A stretch of 64,000 bases of DNA from Ceratodon purpureus (taxonomy: Eukaryota; Streptophyta; Bryopsida; Pseudoditrichales; Ditrichaceae). The stretch spans positions 4,658,988 through 4,722,987 of the forward strand of contig CM026427.1 of the NCBI GenBank assembly GCA_014871385.1, given 5' to 3'. Made by a program: the position numbers and the translations under genes. Below the pieces are notes generated by a model. That model was not told the DNA's origin, did not search any database, and saw nothing but the letters and a program-made list of their open reading frames with translations. Below, piece after piece: positions 4,882 to 36,668 of the stretch (position 1 is the stretch's first letter; every line of letters starts with the position of its first letter).

Positions 4882-5183
4882 GGTTGAAGGAGGCTTCGGT
4901 CTATTGTTCTTTTCATTTGATTTGATTTGATTTAATTGCAGTTCATTGGGTAATCCTTCGTCTACTCTACTTCCCTGAACCTAAACTTGTTATAATTCTC
5001 ATGTCCAATTTGTCTCCGTGTTTGTAAAGGATGAAATGTCATAACTGTAATGCTCTAAATATAATATGAAGAATGAAATGTTACAAAAGAAAGGCTCAAA
5101 TGTAATATTGTGCTTTATTTATATTTTACTCATTCAAAATCCCACATTTCCATAGCCATGGTACCTATACTTCACTTGGTGTA

Positions 5184-6117
5184 CATCTTGGTTTCGGCTA
5201 CTCCATTATTGTACACGAACTCTGAAATATTCCACGGACTTTTAAGACCATTTGTTTTAGTTGGTTTCGAGTTCTCTTATTACTAGAATCATCTATATTA
5301 TCTAAAACCATCATGCTGGAATACTCGTATCTAGATCCAATGAATGACCAAATCTTAAGGATTGTATTGAAACTCCCCACTAGACTTCACAGTACTAATC
5401 CTTCGAAGGATATACAGTCCAACTCTTGTCCATATCAAACCAGCAAGTTTCGCCATCCGATATGATCACTTCGGGCAGCTGAACAACTGGATTCTCATCG
5501 ACGTTCGATAGCAAGGGATACGGGATTAGGGACAACTCCATAATACGGAGAAGCTCATTGGTACAAAGCACTGTCCAACGCCATTCACCTTCACCAACAT
5601 GGAGGCTTCCGATGTGCCTAAACGGTGGCAGGTCCATGCCTCGTTCCCTGGCGCGCTCCACCTCCAGCAGCCACGGCCGCAGCTCCTCATAACTCGCCGG
5701 TGCCTTTGGGGGCAAACCTACAGCCGCTCTCGTCCTCCTGGATCTCGCATTACACACCTTCGGCATCGCGCAACACACTGAATTCTTGTAGTCTTCAAAC
5801 GTTACAGGCAAGCTTGCAGATTGACATCCCCGAACTCCTACGCTACCTTCGCATACAGCACAGCATGCCAAGAGCTGTGTCACTATCCAAATACGCCATC
5901 TAGAGACAAGCTCAAGAAACCAAGAGTGACCTCCTTCTCTGGAACCCAGCTTACCAAGTGTTGTTTGATGATGAAAATCTCCTACTTGTATCACTCAAAT
6001 GAAGATGCTTTGCTGCCTACGAAGAGAGAGTACTCTTCGATAAAGACAAGGACTCTAACAAGGTATATCTTGGTTTCAGCAGTTAAGATATTATACACGA
6101 ATTTTGAAATATTCCAG
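5184..6117 (+). repeat. Pair of diverged direct repeats about 55 bp long (near 5184-5238 and 6062-6117)
   Basis: Both copies contain TATCTTGGTTTC or CATCTTGGTTTC, then TACACGAA, then TGAAATATTCCA, in the same order and spacing, about 875 bp apart and on either side of the hypothetical gene. They lie just inside the borders of the segment absent from X2, so they could have mediated its deletion or come with its insertion. Confidence 0.5.
5395..5994 (-). CDS. Hypothetical protein in the X1-specific segment
   Basis: Open frame of up to 199 codons on the minus strand, convergent with the methyltransferase-like gene. The 3' part, from MPKVCNARSRRTRAAVG to the end, looks most protein-like: a basic start followed by an acidic, tryptophan-containing region. 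The upstream part may be intron or untranslated. I recognise no family. The segment is missing from X2, where DNA equivalent to about 4930 is joined directly to DNA equivalent to 6127. It may be a fourth element gene lost from X2 or a later insertion in X1. Confidence 0.35.
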   Translation of the reverse strand: MIQVGDFHHQTTLGKLGSREGGHSWFLELVSRWRIWIVTQLLACCAVCEGSVGVRGCQSASLPVTFEDYKNSVCCAMPKVCNARSRRTRAAVGLPPKAPASYEELRPWLLEVERARERGMDLPPFRHIGSLHVGEGEWRWTVLCTNELLRIMELSLIPYPLLSNVDENPVVQLPEVIISDGETCWFDMDKSWTVYPSKD

Positions 6118-6419
6118 GAAGTTTTCAAACCTTGCCTCCTTTACGTTCTTTCAAATTTGTTTTTTTCCTTGTGCATTTAGATAATCCTATGAAAGAATTA
6201 TTTGTTTGATCTAAAACTTAACGCCTGATCATTATATCTTGCCTAAATCCATGAGAAATATAACAAAATATATGCATGACGTCATCATGACATCAGCCCT
6301 AATTTGTATCTTAGAGAACAAACGTAATAAATTCTTACCAGAGATAATTTCTAATTTCCACGGTAATATACTCTTTTTCTAAAAAAAGTGTCAAAATTAA
6401 GCCTTAATTTAGTAATTTT

Positions 6420-6537
6420 CCACGGTTATAGGGTCTACTTTGCTTTTGAAAATTTTCCTAATTCTCAATTCTGTGCTCTCCATTCTGCGCTCACCGCTCT
6501 CCGCTCTACGCTCTCCGCTCACGTACGAACTTTCCCC
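6420..6537 (-). repeat. Right terminal inverted repeat of X1
   Basis: It contains the inner block CCACGGTTATAGGGTC (6420-6435) and the outer run of CTCTCCGCT-type repeats ending at 6537. The same arrangement occurs at 30122-30239, and inverted at 15036-15241. The outer part is itself built from reiterated GCGGAGA/GCTCTCC units. Confidence 0.85.
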
Positions 6538-15024: not shown

Positions 15025-15035
15025 AGCTGTATGCG
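15025..15035 (+). repeat. Left target-site duplication of X2
   Basis: AGCTGTATGCG, identical to 30240-30250. Eleven bases is within the 9-11 bp range typical of Mutator-like elements. Confidence 0.92.
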
Positions 15036-15241
15036 GACGTAGCTTGTACGTGAGCGGAGAGCGCAGAGCGGAGAGCGGTGAGTGCAGATTTGGAGAGCGG
15101 AGAGCACAGAATGGGGGACAGAACTTTAAAATAGCAATTTTTTTACTAAAAATAAACTATAAAATTAGAAGATTTGAATATTCTTAGTATATTTTTGGAA
15201 AGTTATTAATTTTAGTAACTTTATTGACCCTATAACCATGG
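15036..15241 (+). repeat. Left terminal inverted repeat of X2
   Basis: The outer segment has GTGAGCGGAGAGCG reiterations, then AT-rich sequence, then GACCCTATAACCATGG at 15226-15241. Inverted partner at 30122-30239; the spacing of the two blocks differs between the ends by an AT-rich insertion. Confidence 0.85.
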
Positions 15242-15982
15242 ATTAATTACAGTATTTTCATTGAATTTGTAGTTCGATTTCTCTTTTCTTGGTGATTAAT
15301 GTTTTAGCGTGCACCAATTACTATGCTCCAGCTCCTTCTAACTAGTTCAGACATACATTAATTTCCCTTATCTCCTCAAATTTATATGCAAATTACTACT
15401 TAAAATGTATTGGTATTGAACCTCTTAAAAGGAATCAAGTAACATTTAATTTCCTAACATTTTCTTAACATTGCTAGAATTCATCCGCCATAGTCTACAT
15501 ACCTTACAACTTTTTATATTAACTTTTTGATATTAACTTCCATTATTCTATCTATCTTGTTAAAGGGGTCAAAAGAGTCCTTTCCTTTAATTCTCTTTCA
15601 TTTTATTTTCTCTTTTATTTTCTCAATCGCCTTCATATTTTTTTCAACCTTAACATTTATTTTTCCTTTTGTTTACTTTTCTTTTTCTAATTTCATTTTT
15701 TATAATTATTATTTTTATTTTTATTTTTATTTTGTTTTTGCTTTTATAATTTAATCTAAATTTTTTTAAATTTTTTTAAATTTTAAATCCTAAATGACTT
15801 CTGCTCAACCCTCATCCTTTTTCATTCATTTTAGGACGACGACTTTTGACTCAATGAAAAGCCGGTTTTCAAGGGCGCCAAGCATCATCTTCACGGATAT
15901 TTAAGGTGGGATTATTGTATGTCTCTTCCTCTTTTCTGTTGGTGTTTTGTGAAGCTCTTTTCCGTAGTGCGGGACAGCAGTT
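15242..15982. other. Left subterminal non-coding region of X2
   Basis: AT-rich, with long T-runs between 15640 and 15780; no gene seen. It precedes the plus-strand acidic ORF and may contain its promoter. Confidence 0.5.
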
Positions 15983-16435
15983 ATGGAAGACGTTAGAGAT
16001 ATTGTTGTATCACTTGCTGACGATGTTTGTCCATTTCAACCATATGCTGAGGTCGAGGACGAAGAAGAGGTGATGGCCAACAGCCAAGGGCGTCCTTTGA
16101 CAACGGATGTTGACGTCCAACCGGATGTAAGAGCTGACCCTCCACGTTCAGAAAATTCGGATGATATCAGAGTGCTGGAGGAGAACACAGATGTGCCTTT
16201 GCAACCTCATGCATACTCCAAGGTTGGAAAGATCCCAAGGGGAACCTATTCCAGGGAATTAGTGAATCGGAGGCAGGGAGGTGGGCCATTGCTAAAACGT
16301 TCATACCAAGGACACTTGCCAAGTGTTGGAACGAAAGTGAATGCAAATGTAGTTTGTCCTGTAGTACAGTCAGAGGCTGGCAGTCCTGCTGATAGTGTAG
16401 TGGGCAACCCTAAACGTGTTAGGTTCGAAGATTAG
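15983..16435 (+). CDS. Small acidic hypothetical protein of element X (150 aa)
   Basis: ATG-started single open frame ending TAG, convergent with the transposase gene, whose stop is at 16690. The N-terminal half is acidic (VEDEEE) and the C-terminus is basic then acidic (NPKRVRFED), a pattern seen in nuclear proteins. No domain is recognised and the start could lie in an upstream exon. Its presence in X1 cannot be checked because that part is outside the window. Confidence 0.5.
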   Translation: MEDVRDIVVSLADDVCPFQPYAEVEDEEEVMANSQGRPLTTDVDVQPDVRADPPRSENSDDIRVLEENTDVPLQPHAYSKVGKIPRGTYSRELVNRRQGGGPLLKRSYQGHLPSVGTKVNANVVCPVVQSEAGSPADSVVGNPKRVRFED

Positions 16436-16689
16436 GACATCTAATAACAAGTATATGTTTGCCGTAATAAATGGTACATGTCAGGGGATACGAGGTATAT
16501 ATTACACTTGTTCAAGATAGAATGTATTGAAATAGAGTGCAATCAATGCGAACGACAAAGCCTTCAATATAATGAAAAAGTCAATACAGCTTCTGAATAG
16601 CTGACTTAGTACATGGTATATTACTAAAATCATTCACTACGTGACAAATGGCCATTGTGGAAACGGCAGTTCTAAAGTAGGAGGGCTAC

Positions 16690-19600
16690 CTACTTCTTCG
16701 CCAAGGGGTGACGCAAGATTCCACTCTCTAGGAGAAGCTTGACCTCGTTGAAGCTAAAGGTAGGCGCATGGATGAAAAGCTCGGCCTCGGGATCACGGTT
16801 GCAGACCTTCAAGAGTATGTAGTAAAGGTGCTTACAATACGTGAACTGAGTCCTGCCTTTGAACGTAGTCATCGTCTTCTTGAATGCTGGGCAAGTGCAA
16901 CCAGGGTAAGAACTGATGGTAATCTGGTAACGTGTGATGTGTGGAGCGACGCCCGAATCCAACCCGATGATGCAACCATGGCCGGGCTCAGGTATCATGG
17001 TGACGGAACGGAGGCGCGCTTTCAGTGACTCGGAGGAGCCCATGGAGAGTCGCTGCGCCGGATTGGGACGAGTGGCAGTGCGCTTCACCATCTTGCCGTC
17101 TCTCTTGCCTGGGTAGCGGTCAGCGTCTGCAGGGACTGGCACTGAGCTGAGATTTGCAGGGGGCGGGGCAGAAGAGAACAGGCGTCTTGGCGAGACCGGT
17201 TTCTTCGGCGGAAGTTGAAAGCCCGCTGCTTCGAGGGCTAAAATCTCAGTCAGTTTTAGGTTAGTACCTAGTTTCACTGGCCAGACCTCTGGAATGGAGG
17301 GGAATTCCTGGTCATTTGAGTAGTGTGCTACCCACTTGCGCTTAGAGCCTTTCACGCAGCGCTCAATATCGTCGGAGCAGAAGAAGAACTCAGTCTTCTC
17401 GAATGTGTTCCTGCGGTAGTTAGTCCAGAGCCCAGTGTAGGTCGGTGCAGCTGTGCAATGGGGCCCCCTGACGATTCTCTCAGTGCACTTCTTCTTCGTT
17501 TCAGCTCTTTGGGCCCAGCAGCACTTCGCAGAAAGTTTGTGAAGTCTCGAAATGTGCCACTCCTTCACGTCCACCTTGGTTTCTTCAACCGCGTTAACAT
17601 GGCGAATGCCGCCCTTGTTCACTGGTGAAGGTAAAGGACAATCAACTTCCTGGGCAGGAGATTGGGTACGTTCTACCTCGAGGTCGTCTTCGGAGTCGTC
17701 TTCCACAATGACAGGCATCTGCATAGGGCGAGCCCTGACGGCACGTCTTGGGCCTCTTGGGCGTGAGAAGTTTGTCTTATCCGGGCGATGGGACTCCTCG
17801 TCAGCTCTGATAAGGACGTCGGCTTTTCGCTTCTGTGAACCGAAGACTTCCGCTCCAGGCATGATAGGCTGACGGGTGCAGAACTCATCCGCGCCTGGCA
17901 TATCGAGCATGGGCTTGTCGAGCAGTGTAGGATTTCCCCATTTCTTCGCGTTGCGTTCAGCCATCCGGAGCCTGAGTTCCTTCTTGGATGGTCCTGTTCC
18001 GCCGACGTCACCTTTGAGGAACTGGTAGTAGTTGACCACCTGTAGAAATGCCCGAACGAAATCGTCCACGGTAGCAACGTAGAGGTCGTTCCCGTTGTTT
18101 CCTGAAGCTTGGAGCCACTTGTTGTGAACTGTTTCGGCGAGGTTACAGGTGGGCATCTCTGTGAGTTCTTCTTTCGTGAATTTCTGCAGATTTGACAGTA
18201 GGTGCCGTTAGATTCACGGATTAGAGTTTTGTAGGTTAGGGCTAGGAAACCAGTATGGAAAACATCAAAACAGAGTTCAGAGATAATACCTCGGTCATGA
18301 ATCCCCCCCATTGGCGGAAGCGGTGGTGCCAGAATGACAGCCACTGATCGAGTTTGATGAGCCCGCTTTCGCCAACGACCCCGGTGGATGCCCACCATGC
18401 TCGCAACGCGTGGTACAGAGTTTCCGCCTCTGCCATGCTGGTCGCATTCTTGTACTGAGTGCACATCTTCTTGTGCTGTTCCCAGAGTTCTTCGGGGAAG
18501 TGCTTCTGCGTATACGCCACCATGTTCTGAGTCCAGTGGAACAAGCACGACCTCTCCCGGTCCTCCATTGGGTCCTCTTTGTTGCCATTGCCGTAAAGGA
18601 TTCGCACTGCATTCCAATTCGCCTGTGCGTTATCCGCCATGAACCCCTTGAAGTTCGGCGCTGCAACGCCATTGATCTCCATGACCAGGTTCAGGTTTTT
18701 CTAGAAGACGAGCTGGGCGTCCGTGTCCTCGGACTGCATGTCGCAAGTGGCGATTGTCATCACGCGGCAGTAGGTGGCGTCGTACACATGGCACGCCATC
18801 GTCGACCAGTCTTTGACGCGTTTGACATGGTCGAACATGATCCATGCGTTCTCCAAGTCGCCACCAGCTTGCATTCGGCTGACCAAGTCGACACCACTTC
18901 CCGGGCCGACCTCCGACATCTTGAAGACGAAGACTTTGTCACGCATAGATCCCTGACCAGGAAACCTATTCTCCTGGACATACGCCCAGAGACTGTTACC
19001 ACGGAGCTTGGTGATACCGTCCATGATTCCGTACCTTTTGAATTTTTTGAAGGTGGCGACTTTGTCGCGGATGTTTGGTGACGCCATGTCTTTGCATCGA
19101 TCCAAAACAGGAACCAGCTCCTCCATCGTCAGCTTCCTCGGTGGTGCATCCTCGGGCTGTAGCAGGTAGCTCCCGATGAGGAGTTTGCTCGCCTCCAAGA
19201 CAACGGCGCTCTTCGTTGCTTTGTTGTTCATCTCTACCTGCTCTTCTATTAAGCTACTAATTTCTGCTTTAGAGTCTCTGTAGTCTCCAACTTTCACTGG
19301 ATGATCATGTGTTCCTAGGTGAATACAAGCTCTAGTCTGATTGGCTTTGCCCACAACGTAATAAATCTTAGCCTCGCATGTAGCTACACATGATGGAGAT
19401 TCTTTACATACCTTGCACACTAGCGTGGAATCAGATGGAGAAGGCTGATCCATGAGAAAAGCTTGCAGGGTACACCCTTCAAACTCAGTCTCGTTAACAT
19501 CGAAGATCTTGGGAACACGCTTCAAGAAGTCACACTCCTCGTTGGTGCAGCGCAGCCATCCGACGCAGTTGGAACTTCGAAAAGAGAGTCCAAAGTCGTT

Positions 19601-20368
19601 TTTGATGTTTGTTGTGATGGTCTTGGTCCACAAGTGTCCGTCGTATCGTTTGTCCATTCCCTGCATTGACTTGGCGGCGAGCTTAGAGGATCCTGCAGCA
19701 GCTGGGGGCAACTCAAAAAGAACCGGACCATCAAACTTCGCAGGCAAGTACTCAACTCTCTCGTGTCTAATAGTGGAATAGTCTATCTTCTTCAAAATGT
19801 TTTTTGACCCACGCGTCTTAGCAATCTCTTTAAGGAGCGGAACAATGCTAATTGTGACCTGGGACAATGGAGGAGACACATTGGAAGGAGGAGCATCTGC
19901 GTGGACCTTAGGCACCAACTTGACGGGACTGACTTCGTCATCAGAAGAGAGAGATATGACGGTCGGAGGAGGTTTCTCTACATCTGAAGTCTCCGTTCCA
20001 GGCTCGACTTTGACCTTGACATCACAAGGTAAGGGAGTCTGAATTGTGCAAGTAGAAGAGCGACGGGGGGTGAGGATCTCAGTGGATGCAGCCATCAGAG
20101 AATCAGTAAGACCATAGACTCTATAGGATCCAGGGAGGAGTCTCCACTGCAACATGTTGTTCTCATCTCTCACCGAAGGTTGCCCGAGGGTGTGGGTAAC
20201 CTCGGCAGTAACGTCATCAAAGATCTCCTCCTCTATACTAATGGAATTCTCACGGAAATGGAATCTGAGACTGAGCCGAAGAGAGGAAACTGTAGCTAGA
20301 CCAACGTCATCTACGCGAAACCTAAGAGGGATGCCCATGCCTTGGGCGTACAGACAGACCATCCCCAT
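16690..20368 (-). pseudogene. MULE transposase with SWIM zinc finger, one in-frame stop
   Basis: Exon 1 runs from ATG at 20368 to 18290; the GT-AG intron is 18184-18289; exon 2 is 18183-16690. Phases match, giving 1190 aa counting the stop position. The MULE core is visible: YDATYCRVMTIATCDM with the first catalytic Asp, then FMADNAQANWNAV with the second. The C-terminus has a SWIM finger (CTCPAFKK, then YCKHLYY; pattern CxC...CxH). The N-terminal half is Ser/Pro-rich with an acidic patch. At 18701-18703 the codon is TAG where the context (QLVF-stop-KNLNL) suggests Trp, so one base change (TGG to TAG) truncates the protein between the two Asp residues. No other damage is seen, so the inactivation is recent or the stop is read through. 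Confidence 0.87.
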
Positions 20369-21195
20369 ATTCGCAGGCAACTCCGAGATACTAGAGGAAG
20401 AACGGAGAAGAGGGAGTGTACTAGCGCAGCAGTATCGCGAGAGCAAAGTGAGAGGAATGATGCATCGCTGTTGCTCATTTTATTCAAATTGGAATGTCCA
20501 TGTGGACGACTAGGTAATGATTCATTCTGCTACGTAACGAATGTATGATTAAAGAGAGACGGCGCTAACTGATTAGAATGTTGCTTTTTGCAGGCCAATA
20601 AATATGTGGGAAGATTTTTAGAATATTGCTTTAAGTGTTTTAATCGTGGAGCAGATTCTATTTTTTATGGACTGTGATTAGATTAAAATGAGCCGTCTTT
20701 TCCTCCTACATCTAAAACAATAAATATATAGAATTTGAATTAATCATATTCATGCATTAGTTATATATATATAAGAGTAATGCAAGCATATGATTTATTC
20801 AAATTCTATATTTTATTCTGTGTTAGGGTTCCTCAATTTTCATAATAGATTGTTGGACAAACAGAGCATCCCCATATTCGCAGGTAACTCAGGTAAGTAG
20901 CGAGAAGAGTGAGTGAAGTAGCGAAGCGATATCGTGAGAGCATCGTGAGAGGAATGATGCATCGCTGTTGATCATTATATTCAGGTTGGAATGTCCATAT
21001 TTGATGTTTGATTTAAGAGAGACGGCGCTAACTAATTTGACTGCTGCTTTTTGCAGGCCCAAGTATAGGAGGTAGGAGTTTTTAGAACTAAGCATATAAT
21101 GTTTGAATCGTGGACCCGATTCTATTTGATATGTGGGTAGGTGAGATTAGAGTGAGCCATCAGTTCCTTCTATATTTAATACAAGTATACCATTG
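20358..21195. repeat. Tandem duplication upstream of the two divergent X genes
   Basis: The segment about 20358-20735 recurs as 20863-21195, diverged. Shared anchors are ATCCCCATATTCGCAGG, GAGAGGAATGATGCATCGCTG, AGAGAGACGGCGCTAACT and TGCTTTTTGCAGGCC. The copy next to the transposase includes its start codon. The second copy lies between the divergent genes and may be a duplicated promoter or leader. Confidence 0.75.
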
Positions 21196-21412
21196 CACAA
21201 TGAAATCTATTATTATTTCGCGGACATGTTTTTTTTCTTCCAATTTAGATTTATCAGATGAACTTTAATTCGAAATGCATTTATATATAGTCTAGGCATA
21301 GGGAAAGTATTCAGGACTGAGACTGAGGGGTTTAAGGTTTGTGATATATAAGAAGAAGGGCAGTTAGAAGGAGAGCTGAATTGTGAGGAGAGTTCTCTCG
21401 TTAGTTAGACAC

Positions 21413-24400
21413 ATGAAGGAGAGTGGAGGGTCAGCTCCCTCCACTTATGTCACTCCTAAACCTAGAAGAAAACCAGGTGGTACAGATTTTACTAACAGGA
21501 GATCGAGGAAGAGGAGAGAATTACGTAGGAAGTCAAAGTCGAAAGGCAACCTCTTGAGTGCACCTCTGAAGGTTCGAGGAGCTGGGCTGCCAGTGGCAAT
21601 TAAATTTTGTAGCATCCGTAAACTCATTCTAGAGTCCATAATAGAGGTGGACGATGAGGTTTTAGAGGATACCGCAGTTGAGCATGAGGAGCATGAGGTA
21701 ATAAGTAGCGGAGAGAAACATCTGGAGATGACGGAAGAGCTAGGGTTCAATTGCAGTCCGACTTTGGAGACACCACAACCTTCGTTCGGATTCAAGGAGT
21801 GTTCAACAAGAGGGACGGATTCTCAGTCGGGCGACCATGCTAATACGGAAGTGGTAAGTTTCATAATCCATGAATTTAAAAATGCTAAATGTAAATTATG
21901 TATTTTTGTAGAGTTATATTTGGTGCGGGTTCGTTGTTTTACTGTTTAGAATAGTGAAGCTGCATTAAACTGAACGGTTGTTCAAAATAAAAGTGGAGTA
22001 GTAATTCTCGTCTTAGTCCTAAACATTTGCGCAGACTGGCGACTGCTTTAGGATTGAGCAAGATGTTTTAGAGGAGAAGACGCCAGATGTGGATACGGGC
22101 GAGGAGTCAGATCATGAGACGTTGAGAAAAGTCGCTAGGAGAGCGAGACGCCAAATTATGGAGGCGGGCGAAGGTGGGGAAGCACTTGCTGCTACACAAG
22201 CGGGGCGAGGGCACCCTGGTAGTCCTACAGAAACTAGTGGGGAGGATAGTGATTCGCTCGACATTGCGGTAGGCCCAGGAGAAGCGGACATTGATGAGGG
22301 GTCGGCCCGAGGGAGCGGTCGAAGGCCTGAGGTGAGGGGTCGTGGGAGGGGTAAGGGTCGAGGTGGGAGAGGGAAGGACTCTTTGCAAGCCCCATCGGAA
22401 CAAGCACCCGCGGCCACAGTAGAGCAGGGGACAGGTAAGGAGATGGCGGACCGAGGAGATGAGCATGGAGAGGAGCGTCTGGAGGAGGTCACTGCGAGTG
22501 AGGAAGGGAGGTCTGACCGCGGCCCTGCCACCGAGGAGGTAAGCATTGAAGTTCGGCTTTTGACTTTTTATGAGTTGTGTATGTTTCGATTTGTTGGGGT
22601 TGTGTTTGTGGGAGCTGCGGGGTGGGGGGGTAATTGGAGAGGGGCGGGTAGCAATCAGTTTTGGGGTTGAGGGAGATTGGCCCGCGGGGGGTGTGGGGAG
22701 GGATTCACTTCACATTATGGAGCTGCGGGGTGGAGGGGCATTGGAGAGGGGCCGGTTGCAATCAGTTTTGGGGTTGAGGGAGATTGGGCCGCGGGGGTTG
22801 TGGGGAGGGATTCACTTCACATTGTGGGAGCTGCGGGGTGGAGGGGCATTGGAGAGGGGCGGGTTGCAATCAGTTTTGGGGTTGAGGGAGATTGGGCCGC
22901 GGGGGTTGTGGGGAGGGATTCTGTACAGAATGCCTTGGGTGGGGGGTGGGGGGGCATTGGGGAGGGGCGGGTTGCAATCAGATTTGGGGTTGAGGGAGAT
23001 TGGGCCGCGGGGGTTGTGGGGAGGGATTCTGTACAGAATGCCTTGGGTAGGGGGTGGGGGGGCATTGGGGAGGGGCGGGTTGCAATCAGTTTTGGGGTTG
23101 AGGGAGATTGGGCCGCGGGGGGTGTGGGGAGGGATTCACTTCACATTATGGAGCTGCGGGGTGGAGGGGCATTGGAGAGGGGCGGGTTGCAATCAGTTTT
23201 GGGGTTGAGGGAGATTGGGCCGCGGGGGTTGTGGGGAGGGATTCACTTCACATTGTGGGAGCTGCGGGGTGGAGGGGCATTGGAGAGGGGCGGGTTGCAA
23301 TCAGTTTTGGGGTTGAGGGAGATTGGGCCGCGGGGGTTGTGGGGAGGGATTCTGTACAGAATGCCTTGGGTGGGGGGTGGGGGGGCATTGGGGAGGGGCG
23401 GGTTGCAATCAGTTTTGGGGTTGAGGGAGATTGGGCCGCGGGGGTTGTGGGGAGGGATTCTGTACAGAATGCCTTGGATGGGGGGTGGGGGGGCATTGGG
23501 GAGGGGCGGGTTGCAATAAGTTTTGGGGTTGAGGGAGATTGGGCCGCGGGGGTTGTCGGGAGGGATTCACTTCACATTGTGGGAGCTGCGGGGTGGGGGG
23601 GGCATTGGGGAGGGGCGGGTTGCAATCAGTTTTGGGGTTGAGGGAGATTGGGCCGCGGGGGTTGTGGGGAGGGATTTTGTACAGAATGCCTTGGGTAGGG
23701 GGTGGGGGGGCATTGGGGAGGGGCGGGTTGCAATCAGTTTTGGGGTTGAGGGAGATTGGGCCGCGGGGGTTGTGGGGAGGGATTCACTTCACATTGTGGG
23801 AGCTGCGGGGTGGGGGGGCATTGGGGAGGGGCGGGTTGCAATCAGATTTGGGGTTGAGGGAGATTGGGCCGCGGGGGTTGTGGGGAGGGATTCTGTACAG
23901 AATGCCTTGGATGGGGGGTGGGGGGGCATTGGGGAGGGGCGGGTTGCAATCAGTTTTGGGGTTGAGGGAGATTGGGCCGCGGGGGTTGTGGGGAGGGATT
24001 CTGTACAGAATGCCTTGGGTGGGGGGTGGGGGGACATTGGGGAGGGGCGGGTTGCAATCAATTTTGGGGTTGAGGGAGATTGGGCCGCGGGGGTTGTGGG
24101 GAGGGATTCACTTCACATTATGGAGCTGCGGGGTGGGGGGGCATTGGGGAGGGGCGGGTTGCAATCAGATTTGGGGTTGAGGGAGATTGGGCCGCGGGGG
24201 TTGTGGGGAGGGATTCTGTACAGAATGCCTTGGATGGGGGGTGGGGGGGCATTGGGGAGGGGCGGGTTGCAATCAGTTTTGGGGTTGAGGGAGATTGGGC
24301 CGCGGGGGTTGTGGGGAGGGATTCTGTACAGAATGCCTTGGATGGGGGGTGGGGGGGGCATTGGGGAGGGGCGGGTTGCAATCAGATTTGGGGTTGAGGG

Positions 24401-27400
24401 AGATTGGGCCGCGGGGGTTGTGGGGAGGGATTCTGTACAGAATGCCTTGGATGGGGGGTGGGGGGGGCATTGGGGAGGGGCGGGTTGCAATCAGTTTTGG
24501 GGTTGAGGGAGATTGGGCCGCGGGGGTTGTGGGGAGGGATTCTGTACAGAATGCCTTGGGTGGGGGGTGGGGGGACATTGGGGAGGGGCGGGTTGCAATC
24601 AGATTTGGGGTTGAGGGAGATTGGGCCGCGGGGGTTGTGGGGAGGGATTCTGTACAGAATGCCTTGGGTGGGGGGTGGGGGGGCATTGGGGAGGGGCGGG
24701 TTGCAATAAGTTTTGGGGTTGAGGGAGATTGGGCCGCGGGGGTTGTGGGGAGGGATTCACTTCACATTGTGGGAGCTGCGGGGTGGGGGGGCATTGGGGA
24801 GGGGCGGGTTGCAATCAGATTTGGGGTTGAGGGAGATTGGGCCGCGGGGGTTGTGGGGAGGGATTCTGTATAGAATGCCTTGGGTGGGGGGTGGGGGGGC
24901 ATTGGGGAGGGGCGGGTTGCAATCAGTTTTGGGGTTGAGGGAGATTGGGCCGCGGGGGTTGTGGGGAGGGATTCACTTCACATTGTGGGAGCTGCGGGGT
25001 GGAGGGACATAAGGGAGGATATTGTTGGGATTGCATTTATTTGCTGGAGTCTTATAATTTGTTTGTTGTTTCTGTTGTAGGAGGTCACTGATCAACTTAC
25101 TGCAACTGATGGTGATGGTCCAACTCCTGTAGAAACTGAGGTGATTTAATCTGATTTCCTGTTTTCAATATTGCAATGTAGAATAAACTTCTTTAAGTAG
25201 TTTTGTAACCTTAATTGGTTAATTGACAATGTATTTTTTCCTCTGCATGTAGGTATTCTCAGATGCACCCTTGTCCATCAGTTCCCCAATCACAGTGATC
25301 AATGTCTCTGACCTCTCGGATTCATTTGATCAGCCCCATTTATGTAGGTTTGATTTAGGAAACCCTGTAGGTTTAGGTAGTGGACCTCTCGAGGTCCACT
25401 CTCCTCAGTACATGCCTACATCTCCTGTCTATGAGCCTACATCTCCGGGCTACATGCCCACTTCTCCACGACTTGGTACCCCGCCGATGTCTCCACCTTC
25501 TCCTTCCTCGCCTATTAGAGTGAGGAGGCCAGCCCATGTTGTCTTCGCCCTCCCGGCGATACTACCATGCCCTGTCCAACAGACCAGGCGTTTTTTAAGG
25601 AGGCGCCGTCATTGGAACTGTAGACAGGCTAGGGAGTATTATAGCCGTGCTCCACGTACATAGTTGCCTATGTACACCTTTCTACTGATGACGATTGGTA
25701 TCAGTACATGAAGCTATTGTTCTATTCTTTTTCATAATTGCATTACTTGTTTTGATCCTTATCTTGGAATCAATTTTGAAAATGTAGTACTTCTTGCAGG
25801 TAACTCAGACACAGGATATGTTGCCAGCGCCATCTTGTCCTCCTGATTTGACGAATGTAGTGGACAGTGAATTGGAACATCGGGTACAACACAAGCAAGA
25901 CTCCAATGGCGTCATCAATAAGCTCCGAATACTTCCAAAGACAAAGTCGCGTATCCAAGTTCCCCTTTGCAGGATGCTCTCAATGGCAAGAGTGCGACCT
26001 GTAGGAGAAATGGGAGTTCAACATTTGGAGCGAGAGTTTGTCAAAGGCTATAGAGATGGAGACCGTGTCATGTACATTTCCATCTACAACCACGAAGAGA
26101 AGACAGCCGATGTCACTGAGGAGATCAAGGCTGACTGGAGCCCGTCTTGGCAAAAAGTTAATGATGCTTTTGAAGATGAGCTCTTGGCCGACCCGGATTG
26201 GAAGGAGTTCTCTGGGAAGATGTTCTATGTCTGGGAAGGTAACCATCGCCTTGCCGCATGGTACAGACATATCAACAAGCATCACAGCGACAATCCAGCG
26301 TGGCACATCTCTGTGCATTGCATTGTTCTTGATCCACGCGGTCATGTTGGAAACCTTCTTCATGCCATGCATGACATTAACTGGTAAGAATTAACTCCCT
26401 CTACTTCGTCTACACCTCTTGAACGTCGATTCAACTTGTACTTTATGCTTATTATTAACTTCCGTCTATTTGTACAGGTCCACAGAAAATGATCACGTGA
26501 AGAGTAATATTCTGGCAAAACTTTATCGTATTCGCTCCTTTGGTGTGATGAAATTGGAGGAATTCAAGGATCTGCTTTCACCACAGGAGTATGCTTTAGC
26601 ATTGAATCACAAACCAGCTACTCCATCCTGGTTTACCTTGCCAACAAAAGTATTCATCGCTTTTCTTTATCGTGTAAGCACTAATTCCTCCCCACCTCAC
26701 GCTTCCATTTGGCAATTGATTTACTTTGCTTCATACAGTTCCTCTAACATTACTTTGTGTTCCAGCGAGAAATTGTGGTTGCTTCTGACGAAGCTGCCAG
26801 AATCTACAAGGAGAAAACACCCATTGAAGACCAAACCGCGACTGGTGTTTGGGATGCCATGAATGCGGCTTCAAACAACATGGTGGAATCGATTAAGAGG
26901 AAGGACTTCACCAAGTACTTGGCAATTGCAAATCCCAAGAATGGTGACGACTTCCTCAACGAGGTGAGACTTTCATCGTGGTTGAGTTTACTAGTTTGTA
27001 TCACAACAACATTTACGTATTCTTTTTTTCTAAAACTCCTGAACTTATTGCAGATTAATCGACATTTCAGTGACATCTCAAAACCTGAGATGTCACTTGA
27101 TAAGCTCCAGAAGATTGTTCCAGCATCCGTCGAGGCGAAGTACAAGGCTCGTTGGTTGAGGTGGTGGAACTCATCTCTGAGTTCCCGATTGTCTTACAGA
27201 TTTCTACCACTTGAATTCAAGGATACCGAATTTGACCCATGGTTGAACAAGGCCTCATTCTGGGCTGGGGTACAATTTCTTAAAAAACCTTTCCAATTAC
27301 ATTACGCATTATTCTCTTCCTCGATTCTTTCTCATTGCTAATTAATTGAATTCTGAATTACAGTTGGAGGAAGCCGTCATTAATGCATTCGAGGACATAT

Positions 27401-29772
27401 GCAACGCGGAGAACATCGTTATCAATTGGAAGGCCTTTCCTGAAGTACAAGAACCGGGCGATTATGTGGAGAGTTCACGTATTCTCTTGTGGGACAAGGC
27501 CTTCCCTACGTTCATTGGAAAATCGGCAGATAAGCCCTTCGACAAGAAGTCCATTTTTGCAAAATTTCCTGGAACCGCCCAGGTTGTCAAGCGGGTTACT
27601 TACCGGTACGATACATTCCTTTTAATCAGATTCAAATTCCATAACGAGGTCTCTTTATCTCTTTGATACTAACCTTCTACATATTGGTTTACATAGGTAC
27701 TTCAAGCGAGAGCTTCTTCTGAAGGGGGCAATCAAGGTTCAGCAGCTCCCCAACTACTTCCTTGCTTGGACGTCGAAAACCTCGGACCAGTGTATCTATT
27801 CTCCCCAACAGTTGAAAAGGTACAAAGCTCCTCACTTGCTCGAGGGATGCTGGTATCTCGATTGCTCTCGTGGTTTCACGATTGACTCAGAGGCGGACCT
27901 CAAGACTCTACACGATGGGGGTGAGGTTGTGGCGGAGGACTCCGTGGATGATGCAGAAGGTCGTGAAGGAGAGCAGGATCAGTCTTCTGCTCCACCACCG
28001 AAGAGAGGGAGAGGAAGGCGACTGAAATCTCTGCGTTCTCAGTCAGAGGCATCACAGCAAACTGGTGCGGAGTCTTCCGCGCCAGCTGAGAAGGCACCAG
28101 AGCCGTCTCCGGGTGTTGTCGTTACCAACCCTTCTCCAGCTTCTTCGCCGGCTCCTTCATCGATCAGTGCTTCGGAGATCACCAGAGGCCTCCTTCAGCA
28201 GAGGAAGGCCAAACTATATCCTCAAACAACTTCTTCCGCTGGAGCTTCGATTTCCACACATGTTTCCGTCTTCAACTCATCTGTGGATTCCATGTTATGG
28301 CGAAATAGGAGACAGGAGAGAAAAGGTGGCGACCCGGATTGGATCAAGACTCAAGACTTCATTCGCAAGGTTTGTTCCTATATTTTGACATTTAATGGAT
28401 TCTGCCACCTCTACTCGCTATGTAGTTACTAACTCTCCTTTCTTGTTTCCTCAAGTTTGGAGCAGGCCGCGAAAACGAAGTTCCGGACCGGTGCAAACAA
28501 GAGGACCATCTGGGAGTCGACTTGATCATTGCCGACATCCCTGAGAATCTTCCCGTCCCATCCGTTTCCGTTCCCCCCACGAGTATTCCGCCTTGGAACT
28601 CTCGCTACAAGGATTATTTGTACGACATCTTCCATTTTGCAGATGAATTCCTGCAGAAAGATGGTGCCATCTGCCTCATCTACAACACTGATCAGAAGCT
28701 GGCTAAGGATATCGAGGAAGAAGCTGCTGGTGGTGGATACGTGCTGTTCAAGGACTGGTGGGGTGTCAATGTACTCGGCCTGACTTCTCCAACGAACCCC
28801 GAGAACTTGGTACTTTTCCTAAACATGCCCTTCTCTTTGCTTACTGATAACCCTTCCGCTTCATTTTACTCACTAGTTTTGCTTGACTGCAGACTATGCG
28901 GTTCTGGATTCGCGTCTACGTTCGTAGTGGCAGTACTTTCTCCTTCCAGACGAAGAAGGAAGAGCTGATACATGGGCTCCTCAACATTACCGAGAGTGGT
29001 GCCATTTTCAACCTCACCGATCTGGACTCGCAGCTCATGAATGGGGAGGTGCCGTGGAGAGGCCCAAGGGAGAAATCCCCTGAGATGATGCAGGGCATAA
29101 TTGAGGAGCTGTCAAAGCCCGGCGACATAGTCCTTGATTGGAATGCTGGGACAGGTAACTCTTCTTACATATCTCTGCTTCATTTTTCCTCTCGTTTTTC
29201 CCACAGTTTCTCATTTTTTTGTTTCTCTCCGAGTTTCAGGGGCCTCCATCAAGGCCGCCCAGGCTGTTGGTCGTCACATTCTCACTTTTGAGGATGACGA
29301 AGCCATATTCAACGCCCTTCTCAAACCATCCGCCATGGGTCCTCCTAAACATCCAAGGCCGGCAGCAGCAGGCGAAGCGCCTCCAAAGAGAGCAAGACCT
29401 GACAAGTGGTGTAAGTCTTTTATTCTTTGTTCAAATTATCCAAGCATTGCTTCTCTTTGCAGCTCTACGTACTCGATCTAACCACAATCGGTTCTCTATT
29501 GCAGAGTAGTTTCAGCAACACCGCCACGTGGGCCATCATCAGTGTCCACTCCATCGTGGCGTCTTCATTCCAGCCCGATTCAGCCTTTCATACTTCCGGA
29601 CTACGCAGAGGACTTAGCACAGGCGTTTCAATCTGGAGCCCTCACTTATGTTCCTAGTCGGCCAACTACTTTTGATCCTAGGGCCCTTCTATTCGTCGAT
29701 GACGAGGCGGTAGAAGGAGATTCAGAGTCATCTAGTTCTGAGAGTGAAAGTAGCGACTGTAGCATGTTGTGA
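21413..29772 (+). CDS. ParB-like / beta-class DNA methyltransferase-like protein of element X (1385 aa)
   Basis: Exons: 21413-21853, 22035-22538, 25081-25140, 25800-26383, 26478-26673, 26766-26963, 27054-27269, 27364-27605, 27697-28369, 28456-28809, 28893-29154, 29240-29410, 29516-29772. All phases close. Residues 1-335 are basic (KPRRKPGG, RGRGRGKGRGGRGK) mixed with acidic stretches. Residues about 395-520 resemble the ParB/sulfiredoxin fold, with VRPVGEMGVQHLEREF followed by the signature GNHRLAAW. Residues about 860-990 are Pro/Ser-rich with KRGRGRR. Residues about 1040-1275 show DLIIADIPEN (motif IV position), then KPGDIVLDWNAGTG and AAQAVGRHI (motif I position). That order (IV before I) is that of beta-class N4/N6 methyltransferases. 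The canonical DPPY is DIPE here, so catalysis is uncertain. ParB-methyltransferase pairing is known from bacteria and phages; in a plant MULE it is unexpected. Confidence 0.72.
22607..25012 (+). repeat. G-rich 108-bp minisatellite, about 22 units, in intron 2 of the X2 ParB/methyltransferase gene
   Basis: Each unit holds GGTTGAGGGAGATTGGGCC, GGGGAGGGATTC and GGGTTGCAATCAG. Two unit types alternate irregularly: one with TTCACTTCACATTGTGGGAGC, the other with CTGTACAGAATGCCTTGG. Spacing of the second marker is 108 bp (22921 to 23029; 23352 to 23460), which is 36 codons, so all frames stay open for long distances and produce spurious Gly-rich proteins. The sense strand has many G-runs able to form quadruplexes. 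The matching intron of X1, as far as visible (1-143), lacks it. Confidence 0.95.
25253..25663 (+). CDS. Alternative 3'-terminal exon with CTD-like heptads (X2)
   Basis: Acceptor tctgcatgtag ending at 25252; 137 codons to TAG at 25661-25663. It has three heptad-like repeats, YMPTSPV, YEPTSPG and YMPTSPR, then the same PPMSPPSPSSP stretch and Arg-rich tail as in X1. It joins in phase to exon 25081-25140, giving a 471-aa isoform that lacks the ParB and methyltransferase regions. X1 has two more YMPTSPV repeats, so the repeat number changes as in true CTDs. Confidence 0.65.
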   Translation, partial: VFSDAPLSISSPITVINVSDLSDSFDQPHLCRFDLGNPVGLGSGPLEVHSPQYMPTSPVYEPTSPGYMPTSPRLGTPPMSPPSPSSPIRVRRPAHVVFALPAILPCPVQQTRRFLRRRRHWNCRQAREYYSRAPRT

Positions 29773-30121
29773 TTTTGAAGGAGGCTTCGGTCTATTGTTG
29801 TTTTCATTGGATTTGATTTGATTTGATCAAACCTTGCCTCCTTTATGTTCTTTAAAGTTTGTTTTTTTTCCTAGTGCATTTACATAATCCTATGAAAGAA
29901 TTATTTGTTTGATCTAAAACTTAACGCATGGTCATAGTATCTTCCCTAAACCCATGACAAATCTAACAAAATGTATGCATGACGTCATCATGACATCAGC
30001 CCTAATTTGTATCTTAGAGAACAAACGTAATAAATTCTTACCAGAGTTAACCCTGATCTCCACGGTAATATACTCTTTTCCTAAAAAAAGTGTCAAAATC
30101 AAGCCTTAATTTAGTAATTTT

Positions 30122-30239
30122 CCACGGTTATAGGGTCTACTTTGCTTTTGAAAATTTTGATAATTGTCAATTTTGTGCTCTCCATTCTGTGCTCTCCGCT
30201 CTCCGCTCTACGCTCTCCGCTCACATACGAACTTTCCCC
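30122..30239 (-). repeat. Right terminal inverted repeat of X2
   Basis: CCACGGTTATAGGGTC at 30122-30137, then CTCTCCGCT reiterations to 30239. Nearly identical to 6420-6537 of X1 and inverted relative to 15036-15241. Confidence 0.87.
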
Positions 30240-30250
30240 AGCTGTATGCG
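30240..30250 (+). repeat. Right target-site duplication of X2
   Basis: AGCTGTATGCG, the exact partner of 15025-15035. Confidence 0.92.
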
Positions 30251-33944: not shown

Positions 33945-36668
33945 TCATATGTGTGTACTTCCATGGAACTCGAGGAAGCACGAGCCAGGACACATGGACC
34001 ACATTCTACAAGCTCTGCAGACCCAGTAGGTGCGGCGCTTGCACACCCGACAGCGTCTCCGGAGCGTCCCCTTGATGCTGTGGCAAGGCAAGGCCCGCCT
34101 GGCGAGGCTTGGGGCGGGGCTCCGGCTCTCCCCTGCGCTCGTGGAGGGCCGTCGTGGAGGGCCGGTTGGCACAATACCTCGTGCAGCAGGACTTCTACCG
34201 TGGGGCCTCTGTCTTCGGCCCCCATCCACAGCGGCTTCGGCGCTGCTGCTCGGTGGTGCAGCATCAACCCCGCCTCGAGAGTGGCCTGCGCCATGGGAGT
34301 CTTCGTTCTCGTCAGGGGCGGCTCCGTTCACGGAGTCCTGAGAGAAGAACACGTCGTCTGCCTGGGCGGCTTCCTGGTCCTCCGCACCCAGGGGAGCCTC
34401 TTCTCTGCGTTGTTGTGAAGACGTCCGGGACATGGCGGATCGTCGCAGAGTACCAGCGCAGCTGGGATCTCCAGTTAGCGGGCACTCCATCAATCCGTGA
34501 GCGAGAAGGACCATAAACCTCTCATGGTCAACGGCTTTCTTCCCTGCGTCAACACAGAGGTGCTTGTACCGCAGATAAGAATTCGTGGTGGCAGAGTCCA
34601 ACCCAAAGAAAAAGAGCCTATGCCACCATTTCTTAGTGAATATTTGGGTGGTGTAACTAGCCCTCAATTGATCCTGCGTGTCAACACCCCGCATCATGGC
34701 CGAGTACAACTTTTGAATAGGACTAGTTGGGATATCTGACTTCCCACCGCTATGGTGCCTGCTGACCGTTGTTCCACCACGATGCATTGGGTCGGCCGCA
34801 GTTGACAAGAAGCTGACCCCCTTCGTGTCTTGCCAGTGGATTGCTGCCATCTCTCGATCCTTGTGAACACGAACTTCCAGCGACCCCCGTGGCACCTTGT
34901 CCGGGACGCGTAAGCTTGTAGGGAATCCCACCCGTTTCTGCTGCGCTGTTCCCACTGCGTAGAAGCCCCGGGTGAGCAGATTCTGAAACAGCATGGGGCT
35001 CGTAAAATAGTTGTCCATGACAACTGTATACCACTGCCCTTCCCACCCTGAAGTGAGACGCGATACCACTCCTCCACCCGACCCGCACGCGTGCTGAGGT
35101 AGACAAGCATGGGCTTCATTTGCAGCTCCCACGTATACCTCCAGATTCAGCACGTACTTGGTGACCGAGCAGCAAAGGCACCAGACCTTGATCCCGTGAG
35201 TGATTGGCTTCAATGGAAGGTACTGTTTGAATGAGCAGTACCTTCCATTGTATGGAACCATGGACTCATCGACGCAGAGATAAGGCGACGCGTTCCAAAG
35301 TGCCTGGAAGTTTTGGACAAGGGTGTCCAGAAGCCACCTTATCTGCGCAATGGGATCATATGAGGGGTCGCTCCGGTCATACTTCAAAGTGTCCTTAGAC
35401 ACTACATGCAAGCACTGTAGTAAGTAGAGGAAACGCTTTCTTGGCATGGTGCTTGCCACAGTCCCGCAGTGCATAGCGTCGGTGTGGACCGTCCAGAAGT
35501 CTCTCACGCGTGGCTGGTTTCGGACAGCCATGAGGATACAGATTCCTATGAATTTTCTGTGATCTTTCAGCGTGATCTTTGGCTGTATCTCCTCTCCGCC
35601 CTTCCGTTTCCCTATCGCTGGATCAATCCATTCGGCATATGAATTCGATTCCTTCACAATTTTTCTCTGAATGGCATCAGTCCATATATCCAGGAAGCAC
35701 TCCAGCGGTCCTAGTACGTCGGGGTACTGAATCCTTGAGCCAGGGCGCGGACCACAGAATTCGTTGCGAGGCAGCAACGCCCATGTCTTTGCATGCCAAT
35801 TCTGATCCCTGTACCTTGCCTCGAACGACTCTTCCTCTTCGTTGTGTGGCCCGGTCCTGTACTGCCCGAGGTCCCCCAGCAGAGCTTCCATGTCTTCTCC
35901 GGAATCTCCGTCGGAGTCGTCACTAGAGAATTTGCAGTTCCAACGAGGCCTTCGTCCTCCACCCCCGCCGCTGGAGCCCGCGGCTTCTGGAAGAGGCCCC
36001 TCCGGCACCCAGTCAGGGTCCGACTCCTCGCTGGCCGCAGGGTGTTGTGAACCCTGCAACCCCGCCCTTGGCCGAGCAGTCCCCAGCGCAGGAGGAATGT
36101 CCCCTGTTCGCGGCCTCGAGGACAAGGCCTCCATGTCGGTTGATGTGCAGGGCATTGCAACAGCCTTCCGAAGCAGACCTTCGAAGCCCCATCGGTCACG
36201 GTCGGTGGCTGGAACTGGGAGCCATGGACAACAATCCTGCTGCCGAATACTCTGAACCCCAAAGTAAGCTCCAAAATCCACGTCGAAGCAGGGGTCTCCA
36301 CCCTCGTCAACGCAGATCCCGGCCACATAACCGCACACCTGACCACAAGGATTCTGAATGGACTCCCCCCCCCATTGCATGTCTACCACACTCACTGAAA
36401 CTTTCCTAAGCAAATTACCTTCCATGGACATGTCAGTTAAGTCGTCCATGACAAGACGATCCGGGGATGGCTCTGCAACACTTGCTGCTGGGTCGAGGAA
36501 GTCAGGAGGCTGCAAATCAGGCTCCAATTGTCCACGTCGGGGTGGCACCTGCAACACCTCCTCTGAAGCTTCACGCTGTTCCCGTGTCCTCGCAGTGCTG
36601 AGTACTGCCTCCACAGCAGCTTGGAATTGGCCCTCTCCATCAGAGAGAAGCGGCTCCATGCCCGCCAT
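33945..36668 (-). CDS. piggyBac-type transposase (907 aa)
   Basis: Single uninterrupted frame. Residues 1-300 are acidic and low-complexity, with SSDDSDGDSGED near 250. The DDE_Tnp_1_7 core follows: first Asp in CVDESMVPYNGRYCSFKQYL (about 466), second in VVMDNYFTSPML (about 551), third in MRGVDTQDQLRASYTT (about 662), followed by KWWHRLFFFGLDSATTNSY. The C-terminus has the Cys-rich finger typical of the family (CRVCKRRTYWVCRACRMW). All expected catalytic positions are present and no stop or shift is seen, so it could be active or domesticated. A TTAA-linked end is visible at 39535 but I find none on the left. Confidence 0.92.
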   Translation of the reverse strand: MAGMEPLLSDGEGQFQAAVEAVLSTARTREQREASEEVLQVPPRRGQLEPDLQPPDFLDPAASVAEPSPDRLVMDDLTDMSMEGNLLRKVSVSVVDMQWGGESIQNPCGQVCGYVAGICVDEGGDPCFDVDFGAYFGVQSIRQQDCCPWLPVPATDRDRWGFEGLLRKAVAMPCTSTDMEALSSRPRTGDIPPALGTARPRAGLQGSQHPAASEESDPDWVPEGPLPEAAGSSGGGGGRRPRWNCKFSSDDSDGDSGEDMEALLGDLGQYRTGPHNEEEESFEARYRDQNWHAKTWALLPRNEFCGPRPGSRIQYPDVLGPLECFLDIWTDAIQRKIVKESNSYAEWIDPAIGKRKGGEEIQPKITLKDHRKFIGICILMAVRNQPRVRDFWTVHTDAMHCGTVASTMPRKRFLYLLQCLHVVSKDTLKYDRSDPSYDPIAQIRWLLDTLVQNFQALWNASPYLCVDESMVPYNGRYCSFKQYLPLKPITHGIKVWCLCCSVTKYVLNLEVYVGAANEAHACLPQHACGSGGGVVSRLTSGWEGQWYTVVMDNYFTSPMLFQNLLTRGFYAVGTAQQKRVGFPTSLRVPDKVPRGSLEVRVHKDREMAAIHWQDTKGVSFLSTAADPMHRGGTTVSRHHSGGKSDIPTSPIQKLYSAMMRGVDTQDQLRASYTTQIFTKKWWHRLFFFGLDSATTNSYLRYKHLCVDAGKKAVDHERFMVLLAHGLMECPLTGDPSCAGTLRRSAMSRTSSQQRREEAPLGAEDQEAAQADDVFFSQDSVNGAAPDENEDSHGAGHSRGGVDAAPPSSSAEAAVDGGRRQRPHGRSPAARGIVPTGPPRRPSTSAGESRSPAPSLARRALPCHSIKGTLRRRCRVCKRRTYWVCRACRMWSMCPGSCFLEFHGSTHI

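Follow-up and report, generated by a model that had tools for sequence, protein, structure and literature searches.

The moss Ceratodon purpureus carries a 15.2 kb Mutator-like element (MULE), here called element X, in which a transposase gene on the minus strand (~20371-16690) is divergent from a multi-exon accessory gene on the plus strand (21413-29771). X was analyzed within a window of 64,000 nucleotides, which comprises positions 4,658,988 to 4,722,987 of contig CM026427.1 (assembly GCA_014871385.1, forward strand); the features are given in window positions in Table 1. A sequence-only reading of this DNA had described a perfect 11-bp duplication, inverted ends, a MULE transposase, a divergent 13-exon gene with a ParB-type GNHRLAAW signature and a beta-class methyltransferase arrangement, and a second copy with the same gene (X1). 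These features were recovered here, with qualifications for the methyltransferase and for X1. The stop in the transposase, the exon at 25253-25663 and the departure of the sequence DIPE from the usual DPPY were absent from that reading.

Table 1. Features of element X and of copy X1 (window positions).
Feature	Position	Strand	Remarks
Element X	15036-30239		Mutator-like, 15.2 kb; basis: inverted ends, duplication, second full-length copy elsewhere
Left target-site duplication	15025-15035		AGCTGTATGCG; basis: sequence
Right target-site duplication	30240-30250		AGCTGTATGCG; basis: sequence
Left terminal inverted repeat	15036-15098		
Right terminal inverted repeat	30177-30239		
Transposase exon 1	18291-20371	-	DDE core; exon borders set by eye
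Transposase exon 2	16690-18187	-	SWIM-like CxC...CxH pattern, by eye
Region separating the divergent genes	20350-21184		Tandem duplication 20350-20720 / 20857-21184
Accessory gene exon 1	21413-21853	+	
Accessory gene exon 2	22035-22538	+	
Tandem array, intron 2	22611-24974		108 bp x 21.9; core ATTCTGTACAGAAT x 11, one-base variant x 1
Accessory gene exon 3	25081-25140	+	
Putative alternative exon, stop-terminated	25253-25663	+	YxPTSPx heptads, Arg-rich end
ParB/Srx-fold exon	25800-26383	+	GNHRLAAW at 26238-26261 (by eye)
Middle-region exon	26478-26673	+	
Middle-region exon	26766-26963	+	
Middle-region exon	27054-27269	+	
Middle-region exon	27364-27605	+	
Low-complexity linker exon	27697-28369	+	
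Methyltransferase exon	28456-28809	+	Motif IV position, DIPE 28534-28545 (by eye)
Methyltransferase exon	28893-29154	+	Motif I, VLDWNAGTG starts at 29130
Methyltransferase exon	29240-29410	+	Remainder of PF01555 match
Last exon	29507-29771	+	Acidic tail and stop
Small open reading frame, 150 amino acids	15983-16435	+	Open also in second full-length copy
Copy X1	383-6537 (383-4936 + 6125-6537)	+	Left part beyond window edge

The flanking duplication is identical at 11/11 bp on both sides of X, and at a second full-length copy, located at another genomic site, it agrees at 10/11 positions. The inverted ends show 85% complementarity over 48 nucleotides. Target-site duplications of MULEs are described as 8-11 bp in length (PMC6446971), and X combines a duplication of this length with inverted ends and a transposase with a DDE fold of the Mutator/IS256 type, which together place X among the MULEs. 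Structure prediction was performed on a relative of the transposase (P0001), the model of which has a ubiquitin/PB1-like fold at the N-terminus. The insertion-sequence transposase ISCth4 (PDB 6xgx), which we take to be a bacterial enzyme of the IS256 family, resembles the X-family transposase with 10% sequence identity. The Pfam Mutator transposase models gave no match for the X transposase itself, and Transposase_mut (PF00872) was found in 2 of 63 relatives with a best expectation value (E) of 0.034; 57 of the 120 matches listed (275 found) had been left out of this comparison. Many MULE transposases, though not all, possess a SWIM zinc finger; a candidate, CTC...YCKH, was read by eye in X, and Pfam returned no match to it. 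Exon 1 contains a single in-frame stop (18698-18700), and other copies encode a sense codon at the positions of the stops in the transposase of X and in X1.

X belongs to a multicopy family of Mutator-like elements, which are usually equipped with the transposase and the divergent accessory gene. The sequence-only reading had called for a genome search for further copies, and 362,488,568 bases in 151 contigs were searched. The 29-bp pattern of the right end, with up to three mismatches allowed, was matched 902 times genome-wide (control: 0), and the DNA of the accessory gene gave 939 first-look candidates, of which all 40 that were scored match. Gene content was sampled at the first 16 ends among the matches listed, all of them exact and on contig C1, by fetching 2.5 kb for each. 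The gene sequence reaches the edge of the fetched DNA in 14 of the 16, one end (L021) contains the last exon only and one (L034) none, so the same terminal inverted repeats do not regularly occur without the gene in this sample. Eight of the 16 ends were probed deeper; the transposase is in place in seven and L044 shows nothing. Of the 20 top-scoring loci (a set that includes X), 14 are free of stops and frameshifts across the ten exons from 25800 onward. X1 contains the same accessory gene, but a stop interrupts the later part of its methyltransferase domain. Relative to X1 (4936-6125), about 1.2 kb is missing from X at 29827; since X1 and several ends (such as L024 and L026) hold this DNA contiguously, X has probably lost it.

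The accessory gene is real and conserved in this family. Its 13 exons are joined in frame with GT-AG at all borders, and the ten exons from 25800 onward are equal in length in X1 with the GT-AG borders kept, while the first five introns of this stretch are only 42-66% alike. The encoded protein comprises a charged N-terminal region, the ParB/Srx-fold domain, a middle region and the methyltransferase-fold domain. Since X1 has not retained the start codon at 25818, the exon encoding the ParB domain is likely to be an internal one, spliced to upstream exons. A promoter of its own before 25800 was considered and is disfavored, as X and X1 agree poorly over this stretch but keep the acceptor.

The domain encoded by exon 25800-26383 has the fold of the ParB/Srx superfamily. 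The nucleotide-binding signature GxxRxxA, presumably corresponding to Box II, is present as GNHRLAA with the G, the R and the last A conserved in at least 90% of the relatives compared, from which 20 of 92 matches, mostly of partial coverage, had been left out by hand. The Arg of this signature, which in ParB-CTPase-fold proteins is reported to be required for nucleoside triphosphate binding (PMC12704722), is replaced in two copies (L005 and L007). The sequence-only reading had proposed that both folds be sought by profile search and structure prediction; both are supported and PF01555 is matched above its cut-off, whereas the Pfam ParB sequence model gave no match at E up to 10 under default filters. 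A protein search with the whole spliced accessory protein returned nothing at E 0.001 and the ParB exon alone gave 92 matches among 250 candidates, which suggests that the database searched holds unspliced, exon-like open reading frames (ORFs). Among phages, the ParB domain had a single match (E 8); no relative was confirmed in viral_contigs and genome_contigs, PHROGs gave one match to a group of no known function (E 0.28), and BFVD returned ParB/sulfiredoxin-type phage proteins, none with E <0.001. The absence of other folds from the VIA lists carries no evidential weight. The methyltransferase domain had 643 matches in phage records (best E among those listed 2e-5), and it is the only part of the protein to which PHROGs, NCBIfam and PADLOC assign a name. 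As a side observation, the longest contig given is 674,632 bases for a transposase relative (P0063) and likewise for a ParB-exon relative (P0150), which hints that the two are linked in another source.

Judged from its sequence, the C-terminal domain belongs by descent to the N4/N6 methyltransferases, a membership that does not extend to a claim of enzymatic activity. PF01555 is matched with 34.1 bits against a curated cut-off of 26.7, covering only profile positions 163-217 of 221. The GxG region of motif I (VLDWNAGTG, 29130-29241 by eye, spanning an intron) follows motif IV, which is the beta order in the alignment with DpnA and CcrM. The motif order described by the sequence-only reading is real; motif IV, however, is altered. 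Its consensus is (D/N/S)PP(Y/F/W), and DIPE, placed at this position by the DpnA/CcrM alignment, which by itself scores about zero bits, differs from DPPY in lacking the first proline and the aromatic residue, so that a catalytic motif IV in its canonical form is missing. DIPE occupies this position in 20/20 best-scoring copies and in L023, L033 and X1. Compared with a third subfamily, the domain evolves at a dN/dS ratio (omega) of 0.16-0.33, which indicates purifying selection.

Intron 2 of the accessory gene is filled by a tandem array, a minisatellite that differs between subfamilies. Its units are 171 bp long in C5, C8 and C11, other 171-bp units are found in L040 and L041, and the units of L042 and L043 measure 211 bp; in the latter four copies the differing arrays sit upstream of the heptad exon. 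Cores of the form ATTC-N6-GAAT number 12 in the X array and 49 in C5, are present in all but two (L007 and L016) of 16 other array tails, and extend up to a perfect 26-bp palindrome. Outside the X array, four occur over the remaining 61.4 kb of the window, two of them within X between the divergent genes. When the best inverted repeat of the unit was compared with 200 shuffles, the counts were 1 for X, 12 for C11, 29 for C5, 36 for C8, 0 for L042/L043, 174 for L040 and 89 for L041. L042 and L043 carry an inverted repeat of 24 bp that is different from the palindrome of X, and a palindrome in every array is ruled out by L040 and L041. Because this test is mixed across arrays, the palindrome as a target of the ParB-type domain is an idea rather than a result.

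The exon at 25253-25663, which we read from its sequence as an alternative exon, was looked for in 25 copies. YxPTSPx heptads are present in 24 of them (three heptads in X, five in X1); in L016, which has an insert there, none was found. An identical terminal stop closes the exon in 23/25 copies, and on this ground a reading of TAG as a sense codon, prompted by the stops in the X transposase and in X1, was dropped, short of a full test. L004 ends earlier, and additional internal stops occur in L004, L007 and L010. Between X and X1 the exon shows a nonsynonymous divergence (dN) of 0.07 and a synonymous divergence (dS) of 0.65, i.e., strong purifying selection. The exon also comes near the threshold for PF05001, the repeat of the RNA polymerase II tail (17.7 bits, cut-off 20.3).

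The accessory gene is a mosaic. X and X1 differ in the 5' part by dN 0.16 and dS 0.94 and in the 3' part by dN 0.03 and dS 0.06, and since the introns of the 3' part are also 86-98% alike, we conclude that a recent exchange of the 3' halves took place; the omega values of individual 3' regions (0.24-2.06) derive from only a handful of changes. Against the third subfamily (L041 + L023, open, 1061 amino acids), omega is 0.11-0.35 in 9/9 regions; for L040 + L033 only the ParB exon was used for selection, owing to a frameshift. In six elements compared with X, dS of the transposase piece is 0.08-0.15; for accessory exon 1 it is 0.28 in one element (63 codons) and 0.70-1.34 in the other five, with omega 0.19-0.34. 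The methyltransferase exons of the same six elements are ~88-96% like X where covered; last-exon pieces score lower because the match spans an intron. A divergent 5' block is thus flanked by conserved sequence, the transposase on one side and the 3' part on the other, which implies that the 5' modules are either much older than these elements, which share a young transposase, or were swapped among them.

To our knowledge, no ParB or methyltransferase fold has been found in VANC. VANC/VANDAL is an anti-silencing system of Arabidopsis (PMC5735166, PMC10398659), VANDAL is counted among the MULEs (PMC6446971), and the binding motifs of VANC lie in fast-changing tandem repeats, including an intron of VANC21 (PMC5735166). 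X likewise is a Mutator-like element with an accessory protein and quickly changing non-coding tandem repeats, also in introns of the accessory gene; in contrast to VANC, a role in binding or demethylation would be assigned to X by analogy. The type of gene is already known from algal transposons: the 21.5-kb DNA transposon Sola1-1_Ec32 of Ectocarpus encodes, on the strand opposite to its transposase, an accessory protein of 1104 amino acids with ParB-like and N4/N6 methyltransferase domains, for which self-modification was proposed, and green and red algal relatives are cited in the same source (Iyer 2011; Petroll 2025; PMC12477816). It shares with X the joining of both domains in one protein, the divergence from the transposase and the giant DNA transposon as carrier. 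However, it belongs to superfamily Sola1 and not to Mutator and has a brown-algal host, the comparison being with the published description alone. Fusions of the ParB-CTPase fold to N6_N4 methyltransferases have also been published from phages and prophages (PMC12704722); they too join the two domains and are tied to mobile elements, but they are prokaryotic, whereas the gene of X has introns, charged extensions and a changed motif IV. A literature search by titles and the beginnings of abstracts, with subscription papers mostly excluded, yielded no moss or Mutator ParB-methyltransferase. Nor did this search turn up the setting in a Mutator element of a land plant, an altered motif IV, the array, the exon with heptads or the mosaic of accessory genes, some of which Iyer (2011) and Petroll (2025) may cover.

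The reading we favor, if tentatively and at somewhat below an even chance, is that the accessory protein is a helper that binds the element's own DNA, plays a part like that of VANC and has a changed methyltransferase. The sequences establish the anatomy of X, the identity of both domains, purifying selection, retention of the gene in the copies sampled, arrays that differ between subfamilies, and a divergence of the 5' part that far exceeds that of the adjoining transposase. The ParB-type domain would act as a nucleotide-dependent DNA clamp loaded onto the element's own DNA, probably at the tandem array within the accessory gene, and the methyltransferase fold would serve as a cofactor- or DNA-binding module or possess an altered activity. 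The bound protein would sustain the expression or mobility of copies from the matching subfamily, much as VANC does for VANDAL. We infer the DNA binding, its target, the loss of methylating activity and the anti-silencing role. The sequence-only reading had proposed an action of the protein on its own DNA methylation state or segregation; action on self DNA is plausible, active methylation is weakened by DIPE and segregation found no support.

Active self-methylation, in which the ParB domain brings the protein to the element and the methyltransferase deposits N6-methyladenine or N4-methylcytosine there, marking copies for expression, protection or transposase recognition, is rather unlikely. 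The PF01555 score, the order of motifs IV and I as in DpnA and CcrM and the low omega of the domain agree with it, and self-methylation was proposed in print for the brown-algal Sola1 protein (PMC12477816), but the loss of the first proline and the aromatic residue of DPPY in 20/20 copies, and in the diverged L023 and L033, speaks against it. It is also doubtful that the protein is a transposition co-factor, i.e., a second subunit of the transposition machinery that binds sub-terminal or array DNA in order to assemble or reinsert the ends, with no epigenetic role: the gene is divergent from and retained alongside the transposase and is under purifying selection, yet the divergence of its 5' part greatly exceeds that of the adjoining transposases, which would be unusual in a fixed partner subunit. 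A ParB-parS-like system that partitions or maintains the element in an extrachromosomal form would account for the ParB fold, the palindromes arrayed next to the gene in members of the X subfamily and the different 24-bp inverted repeat of L042 and L043; it is very improbable, as the X gene products scanned with Pfam gave no ParA match, extrachromosomal DNA is without evidence and inverted repeats are missing from some arrays. Mutator-like elements tend to pick up host gene fragments (PMC6446971), but a captured, hitch-hiking gene that does nothing for its carrier is very improbable, given that the gene is retained in 14/16 ends and open in 14/20 copies, that its exon structure is conserved and that subfamilies show purifying selection on it.

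Going beyond the favored reading of a self-DNA-binding helper, a wider proposal, which as a whole we regard as a long shot, is that land-plant Mutator-like elements carry a self-recognition system of the ParB/parS kind. A nucleotide-switched clamp of ParB fold, fused to a pseudo-methyltransferase, would read a subfamily-specific array in its own gene (with palindromes in some), the protein-array pairs would diversify and swap between elements with near-identical transposases, and the alternative heptad product would add a transcription-directed arm. If true, DNA clamps of the bacterial plasmid and phage type would have been recruited by eukaryotic transposons of unrelated superfamilies, and X would offer a candidate system of anti-silencing or self-marking whose fold is not known to occur in VANC. 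With several subfamilies and open copies side by side in one genome, this multicopy family would lend itself to swap tests of protein and target specificity.

Three minor features complete the window. The 150-amino-acid frame is the third ORF of X and had no match in the Pfam scan. Between the divergent genes, two 46-nucleotide arms at 20723-20814 are 85% complementary with no spacer. Outside X, a 907-amino-acid transposase ORF on the minus strand (33945-36668), presumably piggyBac-like, matches PF13843 (DDE_Tnp_1_7) with E 2.5e-75.

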